From Catenulispora sp. EB89 (GTDB lineage: Bacteria > Actinomycetota > Actinomycetes > Streptomycetales > Catenulisporaceae): DNA of 64,000 bases. The stretch spans positions 186,001-250,000 of the forward strand of contig NZ_JBGCCU010000001.1 of NCBI RefSeq assembly GCF_041261445.1, given 5' to 3'. Under the pieces are notes generated by a model, which had not been told where the DNA came from, made no database searches, and saw only the letters and a program-made list of their open reading frames with translations. Positions 9,308 to 43,551 of this stretch are shown here, one piece after another (the stretch's first letter is position 1; every line of letters starts with the position of its first letter). The position numbers and the translations under genes were made by a program.

Positions 9308-9827
9308 CCGTCCGGGTCCCGCCGTCCTTCGAGGTCAGCGTCACCGGCCCGAAGGTGATGATCGGGATCGCGCCGCCGGTCCCGCCCTTGTGGTACCCGG
9401 TCGCGCGCGTGATCCGCACCGCGACCGCGACCAGCGCGCCGGCCGTGCTGGCGTCGCCGTGCACCTTGGGCTCAATCAGCGCGCGGTGGCCGTGCGCCTG
9501 GCCCCACTCGTGGACGGCCCAGGCGTCGCGGCTCATCTCCGGCAGGACGCTGTCGTTCGCCCAGGCCCACAGCCAGGACTCGGCCTCGGCGTTGAAGCTG
9601 CCGAGGATCTGCGCGGGAGCGGTCGCGATCTTGTCCGGGAACGTCCAGGTGATCAGCCCGGTCCGCTGGTCCAGGTCCCAGCGGTCGGCCGTGCCCAGGC
9701 CCCAGGCCTTGGCGTGCGCGGCGCCGAGCTGCTCGATCATGTCCTCGCCCTGGAGCAGCAGGGTGTTCAGATCCGAGGTCTCGGGCTGTCCCGGCCCGGG
9801 ATCGGTGCCGCCATGGAAAGGTCCCAT
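9288..9827 (-). CDS. DUF6882-like protein
   Basis: 179 residues. The pattern of an aromatic strand around GLITWTF, then AQILGSFN and SWLWAWAN, matches the DUF6882-type family as I recall it. There is no signal peptide and the function is unknown. The start at 9827 lies inside the 3' end of the LLM oxidoreductase gene (61-bp overlap, same strand), so the two are probably co-transcribed and perhaps translationally coupled. An internal ATG at 9740 would avoid most of the overlap but would lose conserved-looking N-terminal helix. Confidence 0.7.
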   Translation of the reverse strand: MGPFHGGTDPGPGQPETSDLNTLLLQGEDMIEQLGAAHAKAWGLGTADRWDLDQRTGLITWTFPDKIATAPAQILGSFNAEAESWLWAWANDSVLPEMSRDAWAVHEWGQAHGHRALIEPKVHGDASTAGALVAVAVRITRATGYHKGGTGGAIPIITFGPVTLTSKDGGTRTVTVEIG

Positions 9828-10774
9828 GCGGCGCAGTCTGCCAGGCGACCGACCAGGGCCGCGACGGCGTCGAGCTGTTCCCGCTGGGCGGACAGGCCGA
9901 TCGCGCCGAGGCGGAGCACCAGGTGGCGTGCCCCGGCGGCGACGTAGCCGCCGAGCCCGGCCGTCACCTGCTCGGCGGTGCCGGTGACGACGGCCTGGAT
10001 GGTCTCCAGGTCGGCGAGCGGCATGCCGTAGTTGGCCCGGGAGTAGCGGTCGAGCTGCGCGCGCCCCGCCGCCTCGTCGGTGTCGACGCGCACCGTCACG
10101 AACAGCGCCGGGGTGACGGCCTCGGCCGAGCGGCCTTCCCGGAGCGCGGTCTCGCGGATCGTCGCCAGACCACTGCGATAGTCGGCGGGATCCGGCGGGT
10201 AGGGCAGCCAGCCGTCGTAGAGCTTGGCCGTGCGCGCCAGGGCCGCAGGCGTCGCGCCGCCCAACCAGATCGGTGGTCCTCCGGCACGGAACGGCTTCGT
10301 CGCCGGCGGCAGGTCGTCGAAGTGGATGAGCTCGCCGTGGAACGCCGTGTCCCCGGCCCAGAGCGCGCGCCACAGCGCCACCGTCTCGTCCAGGCGCCGG
10401 AACCGGCGCTCCCACGGCAGCTCGGACAGCGTGTACATGGGCTGTCCGAACCGCCCCGGGAATCCGGCGCCGACCGCGACCGCCAGCCGGCCGCCGGACA
10501 GCAGGTCGATCGAGGCCAGCGACTGCGCGGCCTGCACCGGCCGCCGCAGGAACGGCAGCAGCGCACCGGTCCCGAGCGTGACGCGCTCGGTCGCCGGGGC
10601 GAGGGCCGCGAGCATGGTCAGCGCCTCGACGCGCGGGCTGATCAGCGAATCGTTGACGAAGAGCGAGGAGAACCCGAGCTGTTCGGCCCGCACCGCCAGC
10701 GCGACGACGTCCCGCGGATCGTCCCCGGATTCCCACTGCGCCTCGCCGGTCGGAAGCAACACACCGATGTCCAT
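9767..10774 (-). CDS. LLM-class (luciferase-like, probably F420-dependent) oxidoreductase
   Basis: 335-residue TIM-barrel flavin or F420-dependent oxidoreductase. MDIGVLLPTGEAQWESGDD leads strand 1, followed by AEQLGFSSLFVNDSL, RVTLGTGALLPFLRRP, GGRLAVAVGAGFPGRFG and PPIWLGGATPAAL, all typical of LLM-class proteins. Substrate unknown. It lies 58 bp downstream of the ECF41 sigma gene on the same strand. ECF41 factors are commonly linked to oxidoreductases, so it is a likely regulon member. A dyad ATTCCC-N4-GGGAAT (10809-10824) lies between the two. The last about 20 residues, downstream of the overlap with the next gene, are poorly conserved in appearance. Confidence 0.9.
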   Translation of the reverse strand: MDIGVLLPTGEAQWESGDDPRDVVALAVRAEQLGFSSLFVNDSLISPRVEALTMLAALAPATERVTLGTGALLPFLRRPVQAAQSLASIDLLSGGRLAVAVGAGFPGRFGQPMYTLSELPWERRFRRLDETVALWRALWAGDTAFHGELIHFDDLPPATKPFRAGGPPIWLGGATPAALARTAKLYDGWLPYPPDPADYRSGLATIRETALREGRSAEAVTPALFVTVRVDTDEAAGRAQLDRYSRANYGMPLADLETIQAVVTGTAEQVTAGLGGYVAAGARHLVLRLGAIGLSAQREQLDAVAALVGRLADCAAWDLSMAAPIPGRDSPRPRI

Positions 10775-10832: not shown

Positions 10833-11729
10833 TCACCGCGCCATCGCGGTCTCCTCCTCGACCCGCGACAGCTTCTCCGGATTGCGGACCACGTAGATCC
10901 CGGTGATCAGGCCGTTCTCGGTGTGCATCGCCACGATCGTGTCGATGACGCCGCCGACCCGCAGGACCACTCCCAGGCCGCCGTTGACGTACGCCGTCTC
11001 CATGGTGACGAGACCAGCCAGATGGGACAGGCCGTCGGCCAGGAACCGGGAAACGACGTCCGCGCCCTGGAGCGGCACCGGCGTGGCCTGCACGACGCCG
11101 CCGCCGTCGCCGATGAAGACGACGTCCGGGGCGAGCAGGTCGAACAGGCTCTGCAGGTCGCCGGTGGAGACCGCCTTCTGGAACGCCTCGGTGGCGCCCA
11201 GGAGCTCGGCCTTGGACGTGACGCCGCGCGGCCGCCGCGCCGCGACGTGGTTGCGGGCCCGGTGCGCGATCTGCCGGACCGCGGCCGGGGTCTTGTCGAC
11301 GGCCTCGGCGATCTCGTCGTACTCCAGACCGAACACGTCGCGCAGCACGAACACCGCGCGCTCGGCGGGCGTCAGCGTCTCCATCACCAGCAGCATCGCC
11401 ATCGAGACGCTGTCGGCCAGCTCCACGTCCTCGGCCACGTCCGGCGCGGTCAACAGCGGCTCGGGCAGCCACGGCCCGACATAGGACTCCTTGCGCCGCC
11501 CGAGTTTCCGCAGCTGGGTCAGCGCCTGCCGGGTGGTGATCCGCACCAGGTACGCCCGCCGGTCCCGCACCGTGTCCAGGTCGACGGTGGTCCAGCGCAG
11601 CCAGGTCTCCTGCAGCACGTCCTCGGCGTCGACGGCCGAGCCCAGCATCTCGTAGGCGACCGTGAACAGCAGGTTGCGATGGGCGACGAAGGTCTCGGTC
11701 GCGGACTGCCCCGACGGTTCCTCACTCAT
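10833..11729 (-). CDS. ECF41-family RNA polymerase sigma factor (SigJ type) with SnoaL-like C-terminal domain
   Basis: 298 residues. Sigma region 2 (about residues 14-80, DAEDVLQETWLRW) and region 4 (about 110-165, FGLEYDEIAEAVDKTPAAVR) are followed by a SnoaL_2-like extension. The three ECF41 signatures are present: WLPEPL in the linker (87-92), DGGG (208-211) and NPEKL (283-287). In ECF41 factors the extension acts as a built-in regulator instead of an anti-sigma factor. The ATG at 11729 (RBS AGGTAGGT) is preferred over an upstream start at 11777, because a probable ECF41 promoter (11770-11795) overlaps that region. Predicted targets are itself, the LLM gene and the AhpD-like gene at 20430. 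Confidence 0.94.
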   Translation of the reverse strand: MSEEPSGQSATETFVAHRNLLFTVAYEMLGSAVDAEDVLQETWLRWTTVDLDTVRDRRAYLVRITTRQALTQLRKLGRRKESYVGPWLPEPLLTAPDVAEDVELADSVSMAMLLVMETLTPAERAVFVLRDVFGLEYDEIAEAVDKTPAAVRQIAHRARNHVAARRPRGVTSKAELLGATEAFQKAVSTGDLQSLFDLLAPDVVFIGDGGGVVQATPVPLQGADVVSRFLADGLSHLAGLVTMETAYVNGGLGVVLRVGGVIDTIVAMHTENGLITGIYVVRNPEKLSRVEEETAMAR

Positions 11730-11769: not shown

Positions 11770-11795
11770 GACTCCACGAACCGCGCGGTTGTGAC
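11770..11795 (-). promoter_or_regulatory. Candidate ECF41 autoregulatory promoter
   Basis: On the minus strand GTCACA (11795-11790) is followed after exactly 16 bp by AGTC (11773-11770). The described ECF41 promoter is TGTCACA-N16-CGTC, so this matches in all but one base of each box. Transcription would start about 35 nt before ATG 11729. A nearby element at 11806-11827 (GTGACG-TG-CGTCAC plus flank) recurs upstream of the AhpD-like gene at 20327-20348. Confidence 0.6.
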
Positions 11796-11836
11796 GTGCC
11801 CTCAGAGTGACGTGCGTCACATCGGATCGGAAGCGC

Positions 11837-11859
11837 GTTGACCCTGACGCAGGGTCAAC
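11837..11859. promoter_or_regulatory. MerR-type operator upstream of ABC exporter
   Basis: GTTGACCCT-GACGC-AGGGTCAAC is an inverted repeat with perfect 9-bp arms, 18 bp upstream of the ATPase ATG. Its left arm contains a TTGACC -35-like hexamer. Placement of the dyad within the promoter spacer is typical of MerR regulators, and a MerR gene closes this operon. Confidence 0.7.
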
Positions 11860-11876: not shown

Positions 11877-12815
11877 ATGACGACGACAGCAACCGCCTCC
11901 CCCGCGATCAGCGTCTCCGACCTGCGCAAGTCCTTCGGTGAGAAGGCCGTTCTGAACGGCGTGGACCTCAGCGTCCCGGCCGGGACGGTCTTCGCCCTGC
12001 TCGGCCCGAACGGCGCCGGCAAGACCACGACGGTCCGCATCCTGTCCAGCCTGATCGCCGCCGATGGCGGCCGGGTCTCGGTCGCCGGCCACGACCTGGC
12101 CGAGGCGCCGGAGGCGGTGCGCGCGGCGATCGGGGTGACCGGCCAGTTCTCCGCGGTCGACAACCTGCTGACCGCGCGGGAGAACCTGATCCTGATGGCC
12201 GACCTGTACCGGCTGGGCCGACGCCCCGGCCGGGCCCGCGCCGCGGAGCTGCTGGAGCGCTTCGACCTCACCGACGTCGCCGACAAGCCGCTGTCCACCT
12301 ACTCCGGCGGCCTGCGCCGGCGGCTGGACCTGGCGATGACGCTGGTCGGCGACCCGCGGGTGATCTTCCTCGACGAGCCGACCACCGGCCTGGACCCGCG
12401 CAGCCGCCGTGAGCTGTGGGCCATCGTGCGGGAGCTGGTCGCCGACGGCGTCACGATCCTGCTGACGACGCAGTACCTGGAGGAGGCCGACCAGCTCGCG
12501 GACCGGATCGCGGTGCTGGACGGCGGGCGGATCGTCGCCGAGGGCACGGCCGCGGAGCTGAAGCGGCTGATCCCCGGCGGGCACATCACGCTGCGGTTCG
12601 CCGACCCCGCCCGGCTCACCGCGGCAGCCGTCGCGCTCGGCGCGGACTCCGTCGACGAAGACGCCCTCACCGTGCAGGTCGCGAGCGACGGCGGCTTCGA
12701 CTCGCTACGGACCGTCCTGGACCTGTTGACGTCCGCAGACCTGGCCGCCGAAGAGCTTTCGGTGCACACGCCGGACCTCGACGACGTCTTCCTCGCGCTG
12801 ACCGGCAACGCGTGA
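11877..12815 (+). CDS. ABC transporter ATP-binding protein (DrrA-like exporter)
   Basis: 312-residue ATPase with Walker A GPNGAGKTTT, signature YSGGLRRRLDLAM, Walker B VIFLDEPTTGLD and the H-loop region TTQYLEEADQLADR. The C-terminal extension (about 240-312) matches daunorubicin-resistance (DrrA) type exporters. It powers the permease encoded 44 bp downstream. ATG 11877 (MTTTATA) is preferred; an in-frame upstream start at 11838 lies inside the MerR-type operator. First gene of a three-gene ATPase-permease-MerR operon, probably induced by the exported drug. Confidence 0.94.
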   Translation: MTTTATASPAISVSDLRKSFGEKAVLNGVDLSVPAGTVFALLGPNGAGKTTTVRILSSLIAADGGRVSVAGHDLAEAPEAVRAAIGVTGQFSAVDNLLTARENLILMADLYRLGRRPGRARAAELLERFDLTDVADKPLSTYSGGLRRRLDLAMTLVGDPRVIFLDEPTTGLDPRSRRELWAIVRELVADGVTILLTTQYLEEADQLADRIAVLDGGRIVAEGTAAELKRLIPGGHITLRFADPARLTAAAVALGADSVDEDALTVQVASDGGFDSLRTVLDLLTSADLAAEELSVHTPDLDDVFLALTGNA

Positions 12816-13698: not shown

Positions 13699-14451
13699 AT
13701 GCTCACCATCAGCCAGCTCGCCGACTACGTCGGGGTGACGGTGCGGGCCGTGCGGCACTACCACCAGCGCGGCCTGCTCCCCGAGCCGGAGCGGGACCAC
13801 TCGGGCTACCGCCGCTACGACGCGCGGGCGGTGATCGACCTGATCCGGGTCAAGACCCTGGCCGAGGCCGGGGTCCCGCTGGCCCGGATCGAGGAGCTGC
13901 TGGCCGCCGACACCGAGAGCTTCGCCGAGGCGGTCGACGAGATCGACCGCTCGATGCAGGAGCAGATCCGCGAGCTGAAGGAGCGGCGCCGCCGGGTCGC
14001 CCAGCTGGCCTCCGGCGAGCGCCTGTTCCTCCCGCCGGAGATCGCCGAGTACATCGAGGAACTGCGGGCGGCCGGGGTGAGCGAGCGCGGGGTGCTGATG
14101 GAGCGCGACGGCTGGGTGATGCTGGCCGCGGCGTATCCGCAGCTGGCACCGCGCTGGATAGCGCAGAAGCGTGCCGACTTGGACGACCCCGAGTACCGGG
14201 CCTTCTATGTGGTCTACGACCAGGCGCACGACTGGAAAGTCGACGATCCCCGGCTGGAGGCGCTGGCGGACACCATGGTCGAGCGGTTCCGGGCGCAGCT
14301 GGCCGAAGCTGGCGACCAAGCCGACGAACTGCGGATGGAGAAGGTGCTGTCCGTGGAGGAACAGAAGCTGTTCGCGGCGTACGTCAACGACTACTCGCCG
14401 GCCTGGATACGCCTGCACGACATGGTCGGTCGGCGGCTTCAGGCCTCCTGA
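13699..14451 (+). CDS. MerR family regulator with TipAS-like C-terminal domain
   Basis: 250 residues. An N-terminal MerR helix-turn-helix (LTISQLADYVGVTVRAVRHY, then HSGYRRYDARAV) and dimerisation helix (about 75-110) precede a C-terminal all-helical domain (about 150-250) resembling antibiotic-binding TipAS domains. ATG 13699 has GGGAGG at good spacing. An alternative ATG at 13648 overlaps the permease stop (TGATG) and would add 17 Arg-rich residues. Third gene of the exporter operon and the probable ligand of the 9-bp-arm dyad at 11837-11859. Its 3' end overlaps the convergent sigma gene by 13 bp. Confidence 0.92.
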   Translation: MLTISQLADYVGVTVRAVRHYHQRGLLPEPERDHSGYRRYDARAVIDLIRVKTLAEAGVPLARIEELLAADTESFAEAVDEIDRSMQEQIRELKERRRRVAQLASGERLFLPPEIAEYIEELRAAGVSERGVLMERDGWVMLAAAYPQLAPRWIAQKRADLDDPEYRAFYVVYDQAHDWKVDDPRLEALADTMVERFRAQLAEAGDQADELRMEKVLSVEEQKLFAAYVNDYSPAWIRLHDMVGRRLQAS

Positions 14452-15692
14452 CTCCGCCGGACCTCGGCAAGGCGTCTGGTGAGGAACGCGCGCTCGGCTT
14501 CGTTGTCGGTGAGCACCAGAGCTTCCTCATAGGCGGTGACGGCTTCCGGCCACTGCCCCAGCCTTCTGAGAAAGTCAGCGCGGGCCGCGCTGAGATAGCG
14601 GTAGGTCGCCAGCGCGGGCTCGGCGGCCAAGCGGTCGAGGGCGACGAGGCCGGCCTCGGGACCGTCGCGCATTCCGAGGGCCACAGCCTGGTTGAGCTTG
14701 ACGACCGGCGAGGGCCACAGGCGGAGCAGGACGTCGTAGAGGGAGACGATCTCCGACCAGTCGGTCGCTTCGAAGGTGGCGGCTTCCGCGTGGACGGCGG
14801 CGATCGCGGCCTGGACCGCGTAGCGGGTCGGGGGACCGGCGCGAAGGGACTCCGTCAGGAGGTCGATCCCCTCGGTGATCATCTCGCGGTCCCACCACGA
14901 CCGGTCCTGGTCTTCGAGCAGGACGGGACGGCCGTCGTCGTCGGTCCGCGTCGCGCGCCGCGCGTCGATCAGCAGCAGCAGGGCCAGCAGGCCGGCGGGC
15001 TCGGCGACCGGCAGCAGCCGGTGGAGCGTCCGCGCCAAGCCGACCGCGGAGCCGACGAGATCGTCGCGGACCAGCGTCTCCCCGACCGGCGCGTTGCTCC
15101 CGGTGGTGAAGACGAGGTGAACGACGTCGCAGACCGCTGAGACCCGCTCGGGCAGCTCTTCGGCAGTCGGCACGCGATAGGGGATGCGGGCCGCGGCGAT
15201 CTTCTTCTTCGCGCGGGTGATGCGCGCGGCCATGGTGCTCTCCTGGACCAGGAAGGCCCGGGCGACCTCGGCCGTCGACAGGCCGCAGACCAGGCGCAGC
15301 GTGAGGGCGACACGGGCTTCCCTGGAAAGCGCGGGATGGCAGCAGGTGAAGATCAGCCGCAGGGTGTCGTCGGCGACGGCCGGCGGTTCGTCCGCGTCCT
15401 GCGGGTCCGGGGCGGTAGCGGTGGCTTCCTCGACGAGCAGCGGCATCGCGCGCCGCCACACCGATTCGCGCCGCAGCAGGTCGCGGGCCCGGTTGCCGGC
15501 CACCGTGCGCAGCCACGCGGCCGGATGGTCCGGGACGCCGCCCGACGGCCAGGTGCGCAGGGCTTGGGCGTAGGCGTCCTGGACGCATTCCTCGGCGGTG
15601 TCGAGGTCGCGGGTGATGCGGACGGTCGCGGCCAGGACGCCGGCCCAGTGGGCACGGTGAGCGGCCGCGACGGCGTCGCCGGGGGTGCTCAC
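14439..15692 (-). CDS. ECF42-family RNA polymerase sigma factor with TPR-like C-terminal extension
   Basis: 417 residues. Sigma-2 (about 10-75, DTAEECVQDAYAQAL) and sigma-4 (about 110-165, CGLSTAEVARAFLVQESTMA) are followed by a DUF6596/TPR-like extension of about 240 residues with helical repeats such as YRYLSAARADFLRRLGQWPE. This architecture and the adjacent YCII/DGPF gene are diagnostic of ECF42, which lacks an anti-sigma factor and depends on the extension. The GTG start has GAGGAG 8 nt upstream. It lies 40 bp downstream of the YCII gene in the same operon. Confidence 0.94.
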   Translation of the reverse strand: MSTPGDAVAAAHRAHWAGVLAATVRITRDLDTAEECVQDAYAQALRTWPSGGVPDHPAAWLRTVAGNRARDLLRRESVWRRAMPLLVEEATATAPDPQDADEPPAVADDTLRLIFTCCHPALSREARVALTLRLVCGLSTAEVARAFLVQESTMAARITRAKKKIAAARIPYRVPTAEELPERVSAVCDVVHLVFTTGSNAPVGETLVRDDLVGSAVGLARTLHRLLPVAEPAGLLALLLLIDARRATRTDDDGRPVLLEDQDRSWWDREMITEGIDLLTESLRAGPPTRYAVQAAIAAVHAEAATFEATDWSEIVSLYDVLLRLWPSPVVKLNQAVALGMRDGPEAGLVALDRLAAEPALATYRYLSAARADFLRRLGQWPEAVTAYEEALVLTDNEAERAFLTRRLAEVRRSQEA

Positions 15693-20313: not shown

Positions 20314-20361
20314 CCGCCTGAGAGGCAGTGACGCAGGTCACATCAGATCCTCCCGCACCGC

Positions 20362-20388
20362 TGTCACAACACCTGCGCGCCACGGGTC
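20362..20388 (+). promoter_or_regulatory. Candidate ECF41 promoter of the AhpD-like gene
   Basis: TGTCACA (20362-20368), 16 bp, GGTC (20385-20388) matches the described ECF41 promoter TGTCACA-N16-CGTC except for one base. Upstream, 20327-20348 is an element identical at 18 of 22 positions to 11806-11827 beside the ECF41 sigma gene. AhpD/carboxymuconolactone decarboxylase genes are known ECF41 targets. Confidence 0.6.
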
Positions 20389-20429: not shown

Positions 20430-20900
20430 ATGGAAGCCCGCTTCAACTACTACGGCACCGCCACCGGCCAGAAGTTCAGCAAGTACATCAACTCGGCGGG
20501 CAAGGCGGCCGGCGACTCCGGCGTGCCCTACGCCACGACCCAGCTGGTCCTGCTGCGGGCCAGCCAGATCAACGGCTGCGGCATGTGCACCGACATGCAC
20601 TACAAGGACGCCGTCCACGCCGGCGACCAGCCCGAGCGCCTGAACCTGGTGGCGGCCTGGCGCGAGGCCACGGTGTTCACCGACGCCGAGCGCGCCGCGC
20701 TGGAGCTGGCCGAGGAGGGCACGCGCGTCGCCGACGCGGCCGGCGGGGTCCCGGACGAGGTGTGGGCGAACGCCGCCAAGCACTTCGACGAAGAGCAGCT
20801 GGCCGGCCTGGTGTCGACGATCGCGCTGATCAACGCCTACAACCGGATGAACGTCATCGCCCGCACCCCGGCCGGGAGCTACCAGCCCGGCCAGTGGTGA
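20430..20900 (+). CDS. AhpD/carboxymuconolactone decarboxylase-like peroxidase-fold protein
   Basis: 156 residues. The redox motif is CGMCTDMH (Cys50, Cys53, His57), as in AhpD-like alkylhydroperoxidases, with the partner-region pattern WREATVFTDAERAALELAE. Likely a thiol-dependent peroxide or redox protein. ATG 20430 has GAGGAG upstream. A candidate ECF41 promoter precedes it, linking it to the sigma factor 8.7 kb away. A second paralogue at 40632-41123 shares NGCxxCxDMH but not this promoter. Confidence 0.93.
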   Translation: MEARFNYYGTATGQKFSKYINSAGKAAGDSGVPYATTQLVLLRASQINGCGMCTDMHYKDAVHAGDQPERLNLVAAWREATVFTDAERAALELAEEGTRVADAAGGVPDEVWANAAKHFDEEQLAGLVSTIALINAYNRMNVIARTPAGSYQPGQW

Positions 20901-42876: not shown

Positions 42877-43551
42877 GTGGACGACGTACTGCGCCGTACG
42901 CCCCTCTTCGCCACGCTCGACCAGGACGCGGCCGCGTCGCTGCGCGCCTCCATGAACGAGATCGAGCTGGCCCGAGGTGACCTCCTGTTCCACGAGGGCG
43001 ACCCCGGCGACTCGCTGTACGTGGTCCTGCGCGGCAAGATCAAGCTCGGCCGCACCAGCGGCGACGGCCGGGAGAACCTGGTCGCGGTCCTCGGCCCCGG
43101 CGAGATGTTCGGCGAGCTGTCCCTGTTCGACCCGGGCCCCCGCTCCGCCGGCGCCACCGCCCTGGTGGACTCCACCCTGCTGGGCCTGAGCTCCGACGAG
43201 CTGACCCCGTGGCTGGCCACCCGCCCCGACGTGGCCCGAGCGCTGCTCCGCGCGATCGCCCGCCGCCTGCGCCGCACGAACGACTCGATGTCCGATCTGG
43301 TGTTCTCAGACGTCCCCGGCCGCGTGGCCAAGGCCCTGCTGGACCTCTCGGCCCGCTTCGGCACCCCCGCCGAGGACGGCATCCACGTCGCCCACGACAT
43401 GACGCAGGAGGAGCTGGCGCAGCTGGTCGGCGCCTCGCGCGAGACGGTGAACAAGGCGCTGGCGGACTTCGCGGGCCGCGGCTGGCTGCGGCTGGAGGCG
43501 CGCGCTGTGGTGCTGACGAATGTGGAGAGGCTGAGTCAGCGGTCGCGGTAG
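42877..43551 (+). CDS. crp: Crp/Fnr family transcriptional regulator
   Basis: 224 residues. The cNMP-binding domain (about 10-120) has the phosphate-binding cassette GEMFGELSLFDPGPRSAGA with Arg and Ser-equivalent residues kept, then a C helix and the HTH (MTQEELAQLVGASRETVNKA). This is the core actinobacterial Crp/GlxR-type global regulator. The GTG has AAGAGGAG upstream. It opens a conserved core block (crp, ArsA pair, RidA, NUDIX, wblA, PBP) and is followed by a clear terminator. Confidence 0.93.
   Translation: MDDVLRRTPLFATLDQDAAASLRASMNEIELARGDLLFHEGDPGDSLYVVLRGKIKLGRTSGDGRENLVAVLGPGEMFGELSLFDPGPRSAGATALVDSTLLGLSSDELTPWLATRPDVARALLRAIARRLRRTNDSMSDLVFSDVPGRVAKALLDLSARFGTPAEDGIHVAHDMTQEELAQLVGASRETVNKALADFAGRGWLRLEARAVVLTNVERLSQRSR

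Follow-up and report, generated by a model that had tools for sequence, protein, structure and literature searches.

An ECF41 sigma factor gene and a distant AhpD-like gene of Catenulispora sp. EB89 (genome size 11.9 Mb) are each preceded by an ECF41-type promoter and, further upstream, by a second element that we call E. The composite consists of the ECF41 -35 and -10 elements (TGTCACA-N16-CGTC) and of E, whose dyad lies about 18 or about 28 bp behind the -35. At the level of sequence comparison, the composite, its conservation, its spacing and its target genes are established, and we think it somewhat probable that they represent an actinobacterial class of ECF41 promoters equipped with a phased CRP-type operator and transcribed with the assistance of Crp. 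Throughout, the window is the whole stretch of 64,000 nucleotides that was analysed, E is the inverted repeat GWGR-N5-RTCAC, and distances are those that separate its dyad from the initial G of the -35 core GTCACA.

Two promoters and a shared element in the window

The sigma factor of the window (Table 1) matches TIGR02957 over residues 12-290 with 346 bits in a profile search (cut-off 323) and is full-length, combining sigma2 and sigma4 regions with a fused C-terminal extension, SnoaL_2 alone scoring under the Pfam cut-off. Its translation contains GPWLPEPLL, that is, the WLPEP motif of the sigma2-sigma4 linker, which is an ECF41 trait (PMC3426412). The product of the second gene is an AhpD-like member of the carboxymuconolactone decarboxylase (CMD) family by its domain (PF02627, E-value 2e-18, with a match to TIGR00778) and by the CxxC motif of its translation (CGMC); its peroxidase or disulfide reductase activity is a prediction. 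The protein is 95% identical to its relative in C. rubra and 90% to that in C. pinisilvae.

Table 1. Features of the window and further genes of the same genome that carry the composite.
Feature	Position	Strand	Remarks
LLM (luciferase-like) oxidoreductase gene	9767..10774	-	PF00296; begins 58 bp after the sigma gene
ECF41 (SigJ-like) sigma factor gene	10833..11729	-	298 aa; TIGR02957, Sigma70_r2/r4, WLPEP linker
ECF41-type promoter of sigma gene	11770..11795	-	GTCACA-N16-AGTC, read from sequence
Second element E1	11806..11821	-	TGTGACGCACGTCACT in sigma orientation; dyad 18.5 bp from G of GTCACA
DrrA-like ABC gene	11877-12815	divergent from sigma	palindrome just upstream
MerR gene	about 13.7-14.45 kb		downstream of DrrA-like ABC gene and permease-like ORF
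Second ECF sigma gene	14439-15692	-	DUF6596 and TPR matches
Second element E2	20327..20342	+	AGTGACGCAGGTCACA; dyad 28.5 bp from G of GTCACA
ECF41-type promoter of AhpD-like gene	20362..20388	+	TGTCACA-N16-GGTC, read from sequence
AhpD-like / CMD family gene	20430..20900	+	156 aa; PF02627, TIGR00778, CGMC
Crp (cAMP receptor protein) orthologue	42877..43551	+	PF00027 and PF13545; homology to 3h3u/3d0s/4cyd; candidate E binder
Further CMD genes with E and ECF41 promoter	C1:505 kb and C11:158 kb		
NAD-epimerase gene with E and ECF41 promoter	C2:233 kb		adjoins another ECF41 paralogue
Berberine-bridge-type FAD oxidoreductase gene with E and ECF41 promoter	C13:240 kb		

The earlier note had described near-consensus ECF41-type promoters at both genes, and direct reading bears this out: the promoter of the AhpD-like gene differs from TGTCACA-N16-CGTC at one position, and that of the sigma gene, with the heptamer CGTCACA, at two. 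The identity of 18 out of 22 positions that it had reported between 11806-11827 and 20327-20348 was found again. This pair alone proves little and is only suggestive, because 87 of 3855 random 150-bp pairs of the window (2.3%) reach at least 18/22 on either strand. The pattern GTGACGNNNGTCACATCNGATC, which was built from the two sites themselves, matched the genome only at these two places with up to two mismatches (control, 0). The promoter motif TGTCACA-N16-SGTC occurs 13 times, as compared to 5 for the reversed pattern. Eleven of these matches were looked at, including the AhpD site, five at ECF41 paralogues (three preceding the sigma gene itself and two a neighbour) and one before another CMD gene; for four of the 13, a scripted check returned no suitably placed gene. 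The consensus form TGTCACA...CGTC stands upstream of the sigma gene in homologous loci such as L146 and L129. The decisive evidence for the shared element is its conservation in other genomes.

A split regulon including the LLM oxidoreductase and the AhpD-like protein had also been predicted. The sigma and AhpD-like genes do share the promoter and E, and the LLM gene is linked to them by position only: a start 58 bp after the sigma gene makes co-transcription plausible, but the E plus promoter matches of the genome do not include the LLM gene. A homologue lies beside the sigma gene in C. rubra (L009) and none in L012, L013 or 29 other sigma loci, a comparison that leaves out L010 (too short) and L011 (which does not reach sigma). 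That this sigma factor drives the AhpD-like gene is not proved, because the genome encodes about ten ECF41-like sigmas matching most of the TIGR02957 model, six of them above the cut-off. The best evidence for the pairing is that homologues of this sigma adjoin AhpD/CMD genes and have an E in common with them. In all 50 of 50 genomes with an AhpD relative, an ECF41 sigma is present at an E-value of 1e-40 or below, but this co-occurrence is uninformative because ECF41 paralogues are common.

Conservation, spacing and targets of the composite

On the AhpD side, we analysed the window together with the best 80 of 512 relatives; a promoter score of at least 8.5 out of 10.5 was obtained for 79 of these 81, and 75 remained after dereplication. 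In 50 of the 75, the 70 bp preceding the ECF41 promoter contained the strict pattern G[AT]G[AG]N5[AG]TCAC, against a mean of 0.08 (maximum 2) in 500 mononucleotide shuffles and 1 with the reversed pattern, and between 70 and 140 bp upstream in 0 of 73. The distances were 17.5-20.5 bp in 32 cases and 27.5-29.5 bp in 16, with one each at 12.5 and 32.5, so that 48 of the 50 fall in two classes one helical turn apart. When the right half-site alone was sought at a phased position, it was found in 45 of the 81 (1-6 with shifted positions), and the left half, although left free, was mostly GWGA in those 45 (G 43, A 24 or T 19, G 44, A 38). Strict E is missing in 25 of the 75, and the L012 relative is one base short of it. 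Some AhpD relatives from Streptomyces have an ECF41 sigma of another type nearby (L059, L070, L081, L083).

In Prescottella (L025 and L028), where the consensus scan picked a wrong E, a CRP-like inverted repeat was found by eye only 12.5 bp from the AhpD -35, a distance that departs from the usual phase by half a helical turn; in L028 it is a perfect TGTGA-N6-TCACA.

Homologues of the sigma factor occur at an E-value of 1e-60 or below in 173 of 394 genomes of the class. We compared 62 sigma loci of at least 60% identity, representing 59 distinct places (L010/L200, L013/L202 and L082/L201 are duplicate records). A CMD/AhpD gene is divergent from sigma in 26 of the 62 (24/59 distinct), and a regular expression detected an ECF41 promoter upstream of sigma in 44 (41/59 distinct) and in few of the homologues at 60-67% identity (L211-L227), most of which had none. 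Strict E lies within 60 bp of 20 of these 44 promoters (18/41 distinct) and is absent from that interval in the other 24; in 18 of the 20 (16 distinct) it is 18.5-19.5 bp from the sigma -35. Where a second, outward -35 occurs within 35 bp beyond E, it is at that same spacing in 16 of 16 cases (15/15 distinct). Where the divergent gap between sigma and CMD genes is short, E is midway between back-to-back promoters, and we propose that this single E, halfway between two -35 elements, would serve both; where the gap is longer (e.g. L082, L122, L123, L126, L132), E stands only beside the CMD promoter.

These loci bear on the assignment of E1, which lies between the sigma gene and the ABC gene. The element at 11806-11827 might instead serve the divergent ABC-transporter operon and resemble the AhpD site by a coincidence of the kind met in 2.3% of random pairs. 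We consider this extremely improbable: the sigma gene is still preceded by E in L009, and also in C. pinisilvae (L010) and the MAGs L012 and L013, where the ABC genes of the window do not adjoin sigma, and the ABC gene has a MerR-type palindrome of its own and a nearby MerR gene. Because of this retention, E1 is to be assigned to the sigma promoter, and not to the ABC transporter.

The palindrome in question, GTTGACCCTGACGCAGGGTCAAC, is at 11837-11859, upstream of the DrrA-like ABC gene, which together with the permease-like ORF and the MerR gene forms a probable MerR-controlled efflux module. The space between this sigma gene and the second ECF sigma gene is variable: ABC, permease and MerR genes occupy it in the window, C. 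pinisilvae has a CMD gene there, C. rubra (L009) has no more than the beginning of the ABC gene, and L012 and L013 have none of these genes. The second ECF sigma, which we take to be ECF42-like from its DUF6596 and TPR matches, is likewise found beside the ECF41 gene in L009, L010, L012 and L013. An 8.5-kb insertion with duplicated ends into an ancestral divergent sigma-AhpD pair, an idea arising from the same orientation of the 22-mers, was rejected because in C. pinisilvae the gene divergent from sigma is another CMD gene, and an E of its own precedes the AhpD relative.

Genome-wide searches for both elements, as the earlier note had advised, indicate that its two-gene scope was too narrow. 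A loose composite that asked for no more than the right half of E matched this genome 39 times, against 22 for the reversed pattern, barely above control. GTCACA is the -35 in seven of the 39, and the left half, which the pattern does not impose, is GTG in six of these seven. Requiring both halves gave 6 matches versus 0 reversed in this genome and 37 versus 4 across 245 further genomes from the class; the pattern was fixed after viewing the loose matches, so that 6 versus 0 is not independent and 37 versus 4 is. The six promoters precede the sigma and AhpD-like genes, two further CMD genes, one NAD-epimerase and one FAD oxidoreductase gene. E has the form GTGRNNNNNGTCACA at the composites of this genome, the individual sites differing in the centre and converging on TGTGR-N5-GTCACA. 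Among the 30 of 43 two-half matches whose downstream genes were inspected, 17 (own sigma included) precede an ECF41 sigma (5), an AhpD-type gene (6), an epimerase (2) or a CMD gene of one further type (4), of which one epimerase and one further-type CMD were confirmed by Pfam and the rest by eye; the other 13 are not identified or chance-like. CMD, oxidoreductase and epimerase genes are known neighbours of ECF41 (COE targets; Wecke et al., 2012, PMC3426412).

A variant with GAGA as its left half, taken from the AhpD promoters of named Streptomyces relatives and allowing only 16.5-30.5 bp, gave 63 matches versus 0 reversed in 147 genomes of the order, all in one genus, with distances of 17.5-19.5 bp in 50 cases, 28.5-29.5 in 8 and intermediate values in 5. 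According to BLASTP, 28 of 30 inspected (of the 63) precede an AhpD homologue, a share that is partly by construction because the variant was learned from AhpD promoters; the 63 versus 0 and the distances are not.

Some further matches were noted. In L332 (about 1500-1590), a GAGA-type E and an ECF41-like match lie 33 bp before a cytochrome b gene at the out-of-phase spacing of 23.5 bp, which may be by chance. Near position 1500 of L254-L261 (family f20), where a CMD gene and a more distantly related ECF41 sigma are close by, the composite carries GTGAASGACATCAC, and in six of seven of these loci two -35-like heptamers (TGCCACA and TGTCACA) stand in tandem at a spacing of 11-13 bp. A CMD gene of this genome that precedes the closest sigma paralogue (C39:46.5-50.5 kb) yielded no promoter.

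Five other ECF41-type promoters of this genome (those of three ECF41 paralogues, one CMD and one epimerase-like gene) lack E over a distance of 60 bp, and E is separable from ECF41 recognition. This bears on the idea that E is an intrinsic component of a longer ECF41 promoter and is recognised by RNA polymerase or another sigma molecule, not by a separate protein, for which one may cite the -35 core GTCACA inside E on one or both strands. We judge it very unlikely, since it sits poorly with these five E-less promoters, with the conserved left half of E and with two preferred spacings one turn apart. Moreover, no GTC-type -10 is found 16 bp behind E2 in the AhpD promoter, and E as a second ECF41 promoter was rejected on that ground. 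The BldD box, whose consensus is a 15-mer, was also discarded, E being one base shorter.

Crp as the candidate binder of E

All six E sites of this genome fit GTG-N6-GNCAC, the motif quoted for S. coelicolor Crp (PMC10033298), and two of the six are perfect TGTGA-N6-TCACA, but about half of the aligned AhpD relatives have GAG: of 45, 24 show A and 19 show T in the middle of the left half-site, A departing from the classical TGTGA. The window itself encodes the canonical Crp, with a cyclic-nucleotide domain and a Crp helix-turn-helix, whose recognition helix GASRETVNKALADFA (RE type) is identical to that of 3h3u. It matches the chains 3h3u and 3d0s (about 2e-80) and 4cyd (8e-75) over their full length; these are labelled CRP/FNR-family or probable transcription regulator, and we take the first two to be M. 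tuberculosis CRP and the third to be GlxR. E is most likely a CRP-family site that this Crp would bind.

Rather unlikely, in our estimate, is that E serves another regulator co-controlling the ECF41 regulon, either a CRP/FNR paralogue or an unrelated dimer. Another CRP/FNR protein of the RE type does exist (L230), and the centre of E (its central six bases) and its GAG/GTG left half show conservation beyond what a generic CRP site requires, although the extra conservation of the centre may come from shared ancestry. Against such a regulator, the sites of this genome vary centrally around the common form given above, and no second regulator gene was seen travelling with both sigma and AhpD among the selected genes looked for in the loci read.

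TGTGR-N5-RTCACA has 25 matches in this genome, at 21 places (reversed control, 6). In a survey that took 19 of the 21 and whose script missed five minus-strand-only places, the genes behind 14 of them were mixed (MFS, permease, copper chaperone-like by eye), with no recognisable Crp regulon, an outcome that is not decisive. Besides the GAG left half, the conserved centre and the out-of-phase repeats of Prescottella, two published results count against Crp: gel shifts with Streptomyces Crp failed (PMC10033298), and in a capture assay Sco3571 bound unspecifically to all promoters tested (PMC12093943). In M. smegmatis, cAMP rises under oxidative stress (PMC4218801).

In the mechanism that we propose, cAMP-charged Crp would share one face of the DNA with the ECF41 holoenzyme and aid transcription of the sigma gene (autoregulation) and of CMD/AhpD, epimerase and FAD-oxidoreductase genes. 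The AhpD relatives and sigma promoters that lack a strict E, and the five E-less ECF41-type promoters of this genome, speak against it. We infer here that Crp would be the binder of E, that it would activate and not repress, and that this sigma, rather than a paralogue, would drive the AhpD-like gene. By reference to the mapped 5' ends of ECF41 promoters (PMC3426412), E would be placed very roughly at -52 for the sigma gene and -62 for the AhpD-like gene.

Crp could also bind E and repress one or both promoters, ECF41 activity then overriding it, and a position midway between two promoters would suit such a switch. A dyad near -52 is, besides, not a classical activating position in E. coli. 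Repression seems improbable to us all the same, as E shifts by a full turn without overlapping the promoter, and the sole Crp-ahp precedent found is one of activation (PMC4218801).

Relation to described systems and significance

The composite resembles the described ECF41/COE systems (PMC3426412) in its sigma family, in the TGTCACA-N16-CGTC-type promoter, in CMD, oxidoreductase and epimerase targets and, in some layouts, in the sigma gene itself being a target. It differs from them in that the motif described there has no upstream operator, as the earlier note had rightly held of the second element, which is kept with the promoter around relatives, and in that a single target transcript is reported there, against six E-bearing promoters here. 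In the M. smegmatis case just cited, Crp activates ahpC, in an operon with ahpD, from a TGTGA-N6-TCACA-like site at -81.5 (PMC4218801). A CRP-type site upstream of a peroxidase operon is common to both, and the authors call that promoter not SigA-like; in contrast, the first gene is another, the site lies at -81.5 and no ECF41 promoter is described in the text available.

The six E sites of this genome also fit the motif GTG(N)6GNCAC of the Streptomyces Crp (SCO3571) regulon (PMC10033298), for which, by contrast, the matches listed contain no ECF41 link. GlxR of C. glutamicum recognises half-sites GTG-N8-CAC, although without coupling to an ECF41 promoter in that source (PMC10033298). The closeness of 4cyd, taken to be GlxR, to the Crp of the window adds to this likeness. 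Among the matches listed in our literature search, none reports a link of Crp, or of any second element, with ECF41 promoters, and in PMC9205884 the terms ECF41 and Crp both appear only in the reference list.

ECF41 sigmas are widespread, and the signal that switches them on is unsettled; a review considers small molecules acting on the C-terminal domain likely (PMC8999054). A phased CRP-type operator points to a second input, cAMP or the state of Crp. More tentatively, and with our doubts somewhat outweighing our confidence, a phased cAMP-Crp dimer, shared by back-to-back promoters, might be required together with the C-terminally regulated sigma factor, as a second key, for the AhpD/COE regulon in a large actinobacterial ECF41 class. 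If true, a whole group of ECF sigmas would be generally coupled to Crp, a link absent from the literature searched. The composite provides a DNA signature for the regulon that divides the ECF41-type promoters of one genome into classes with and without E, a division that makes the question of ECF41 signalling directly testable.
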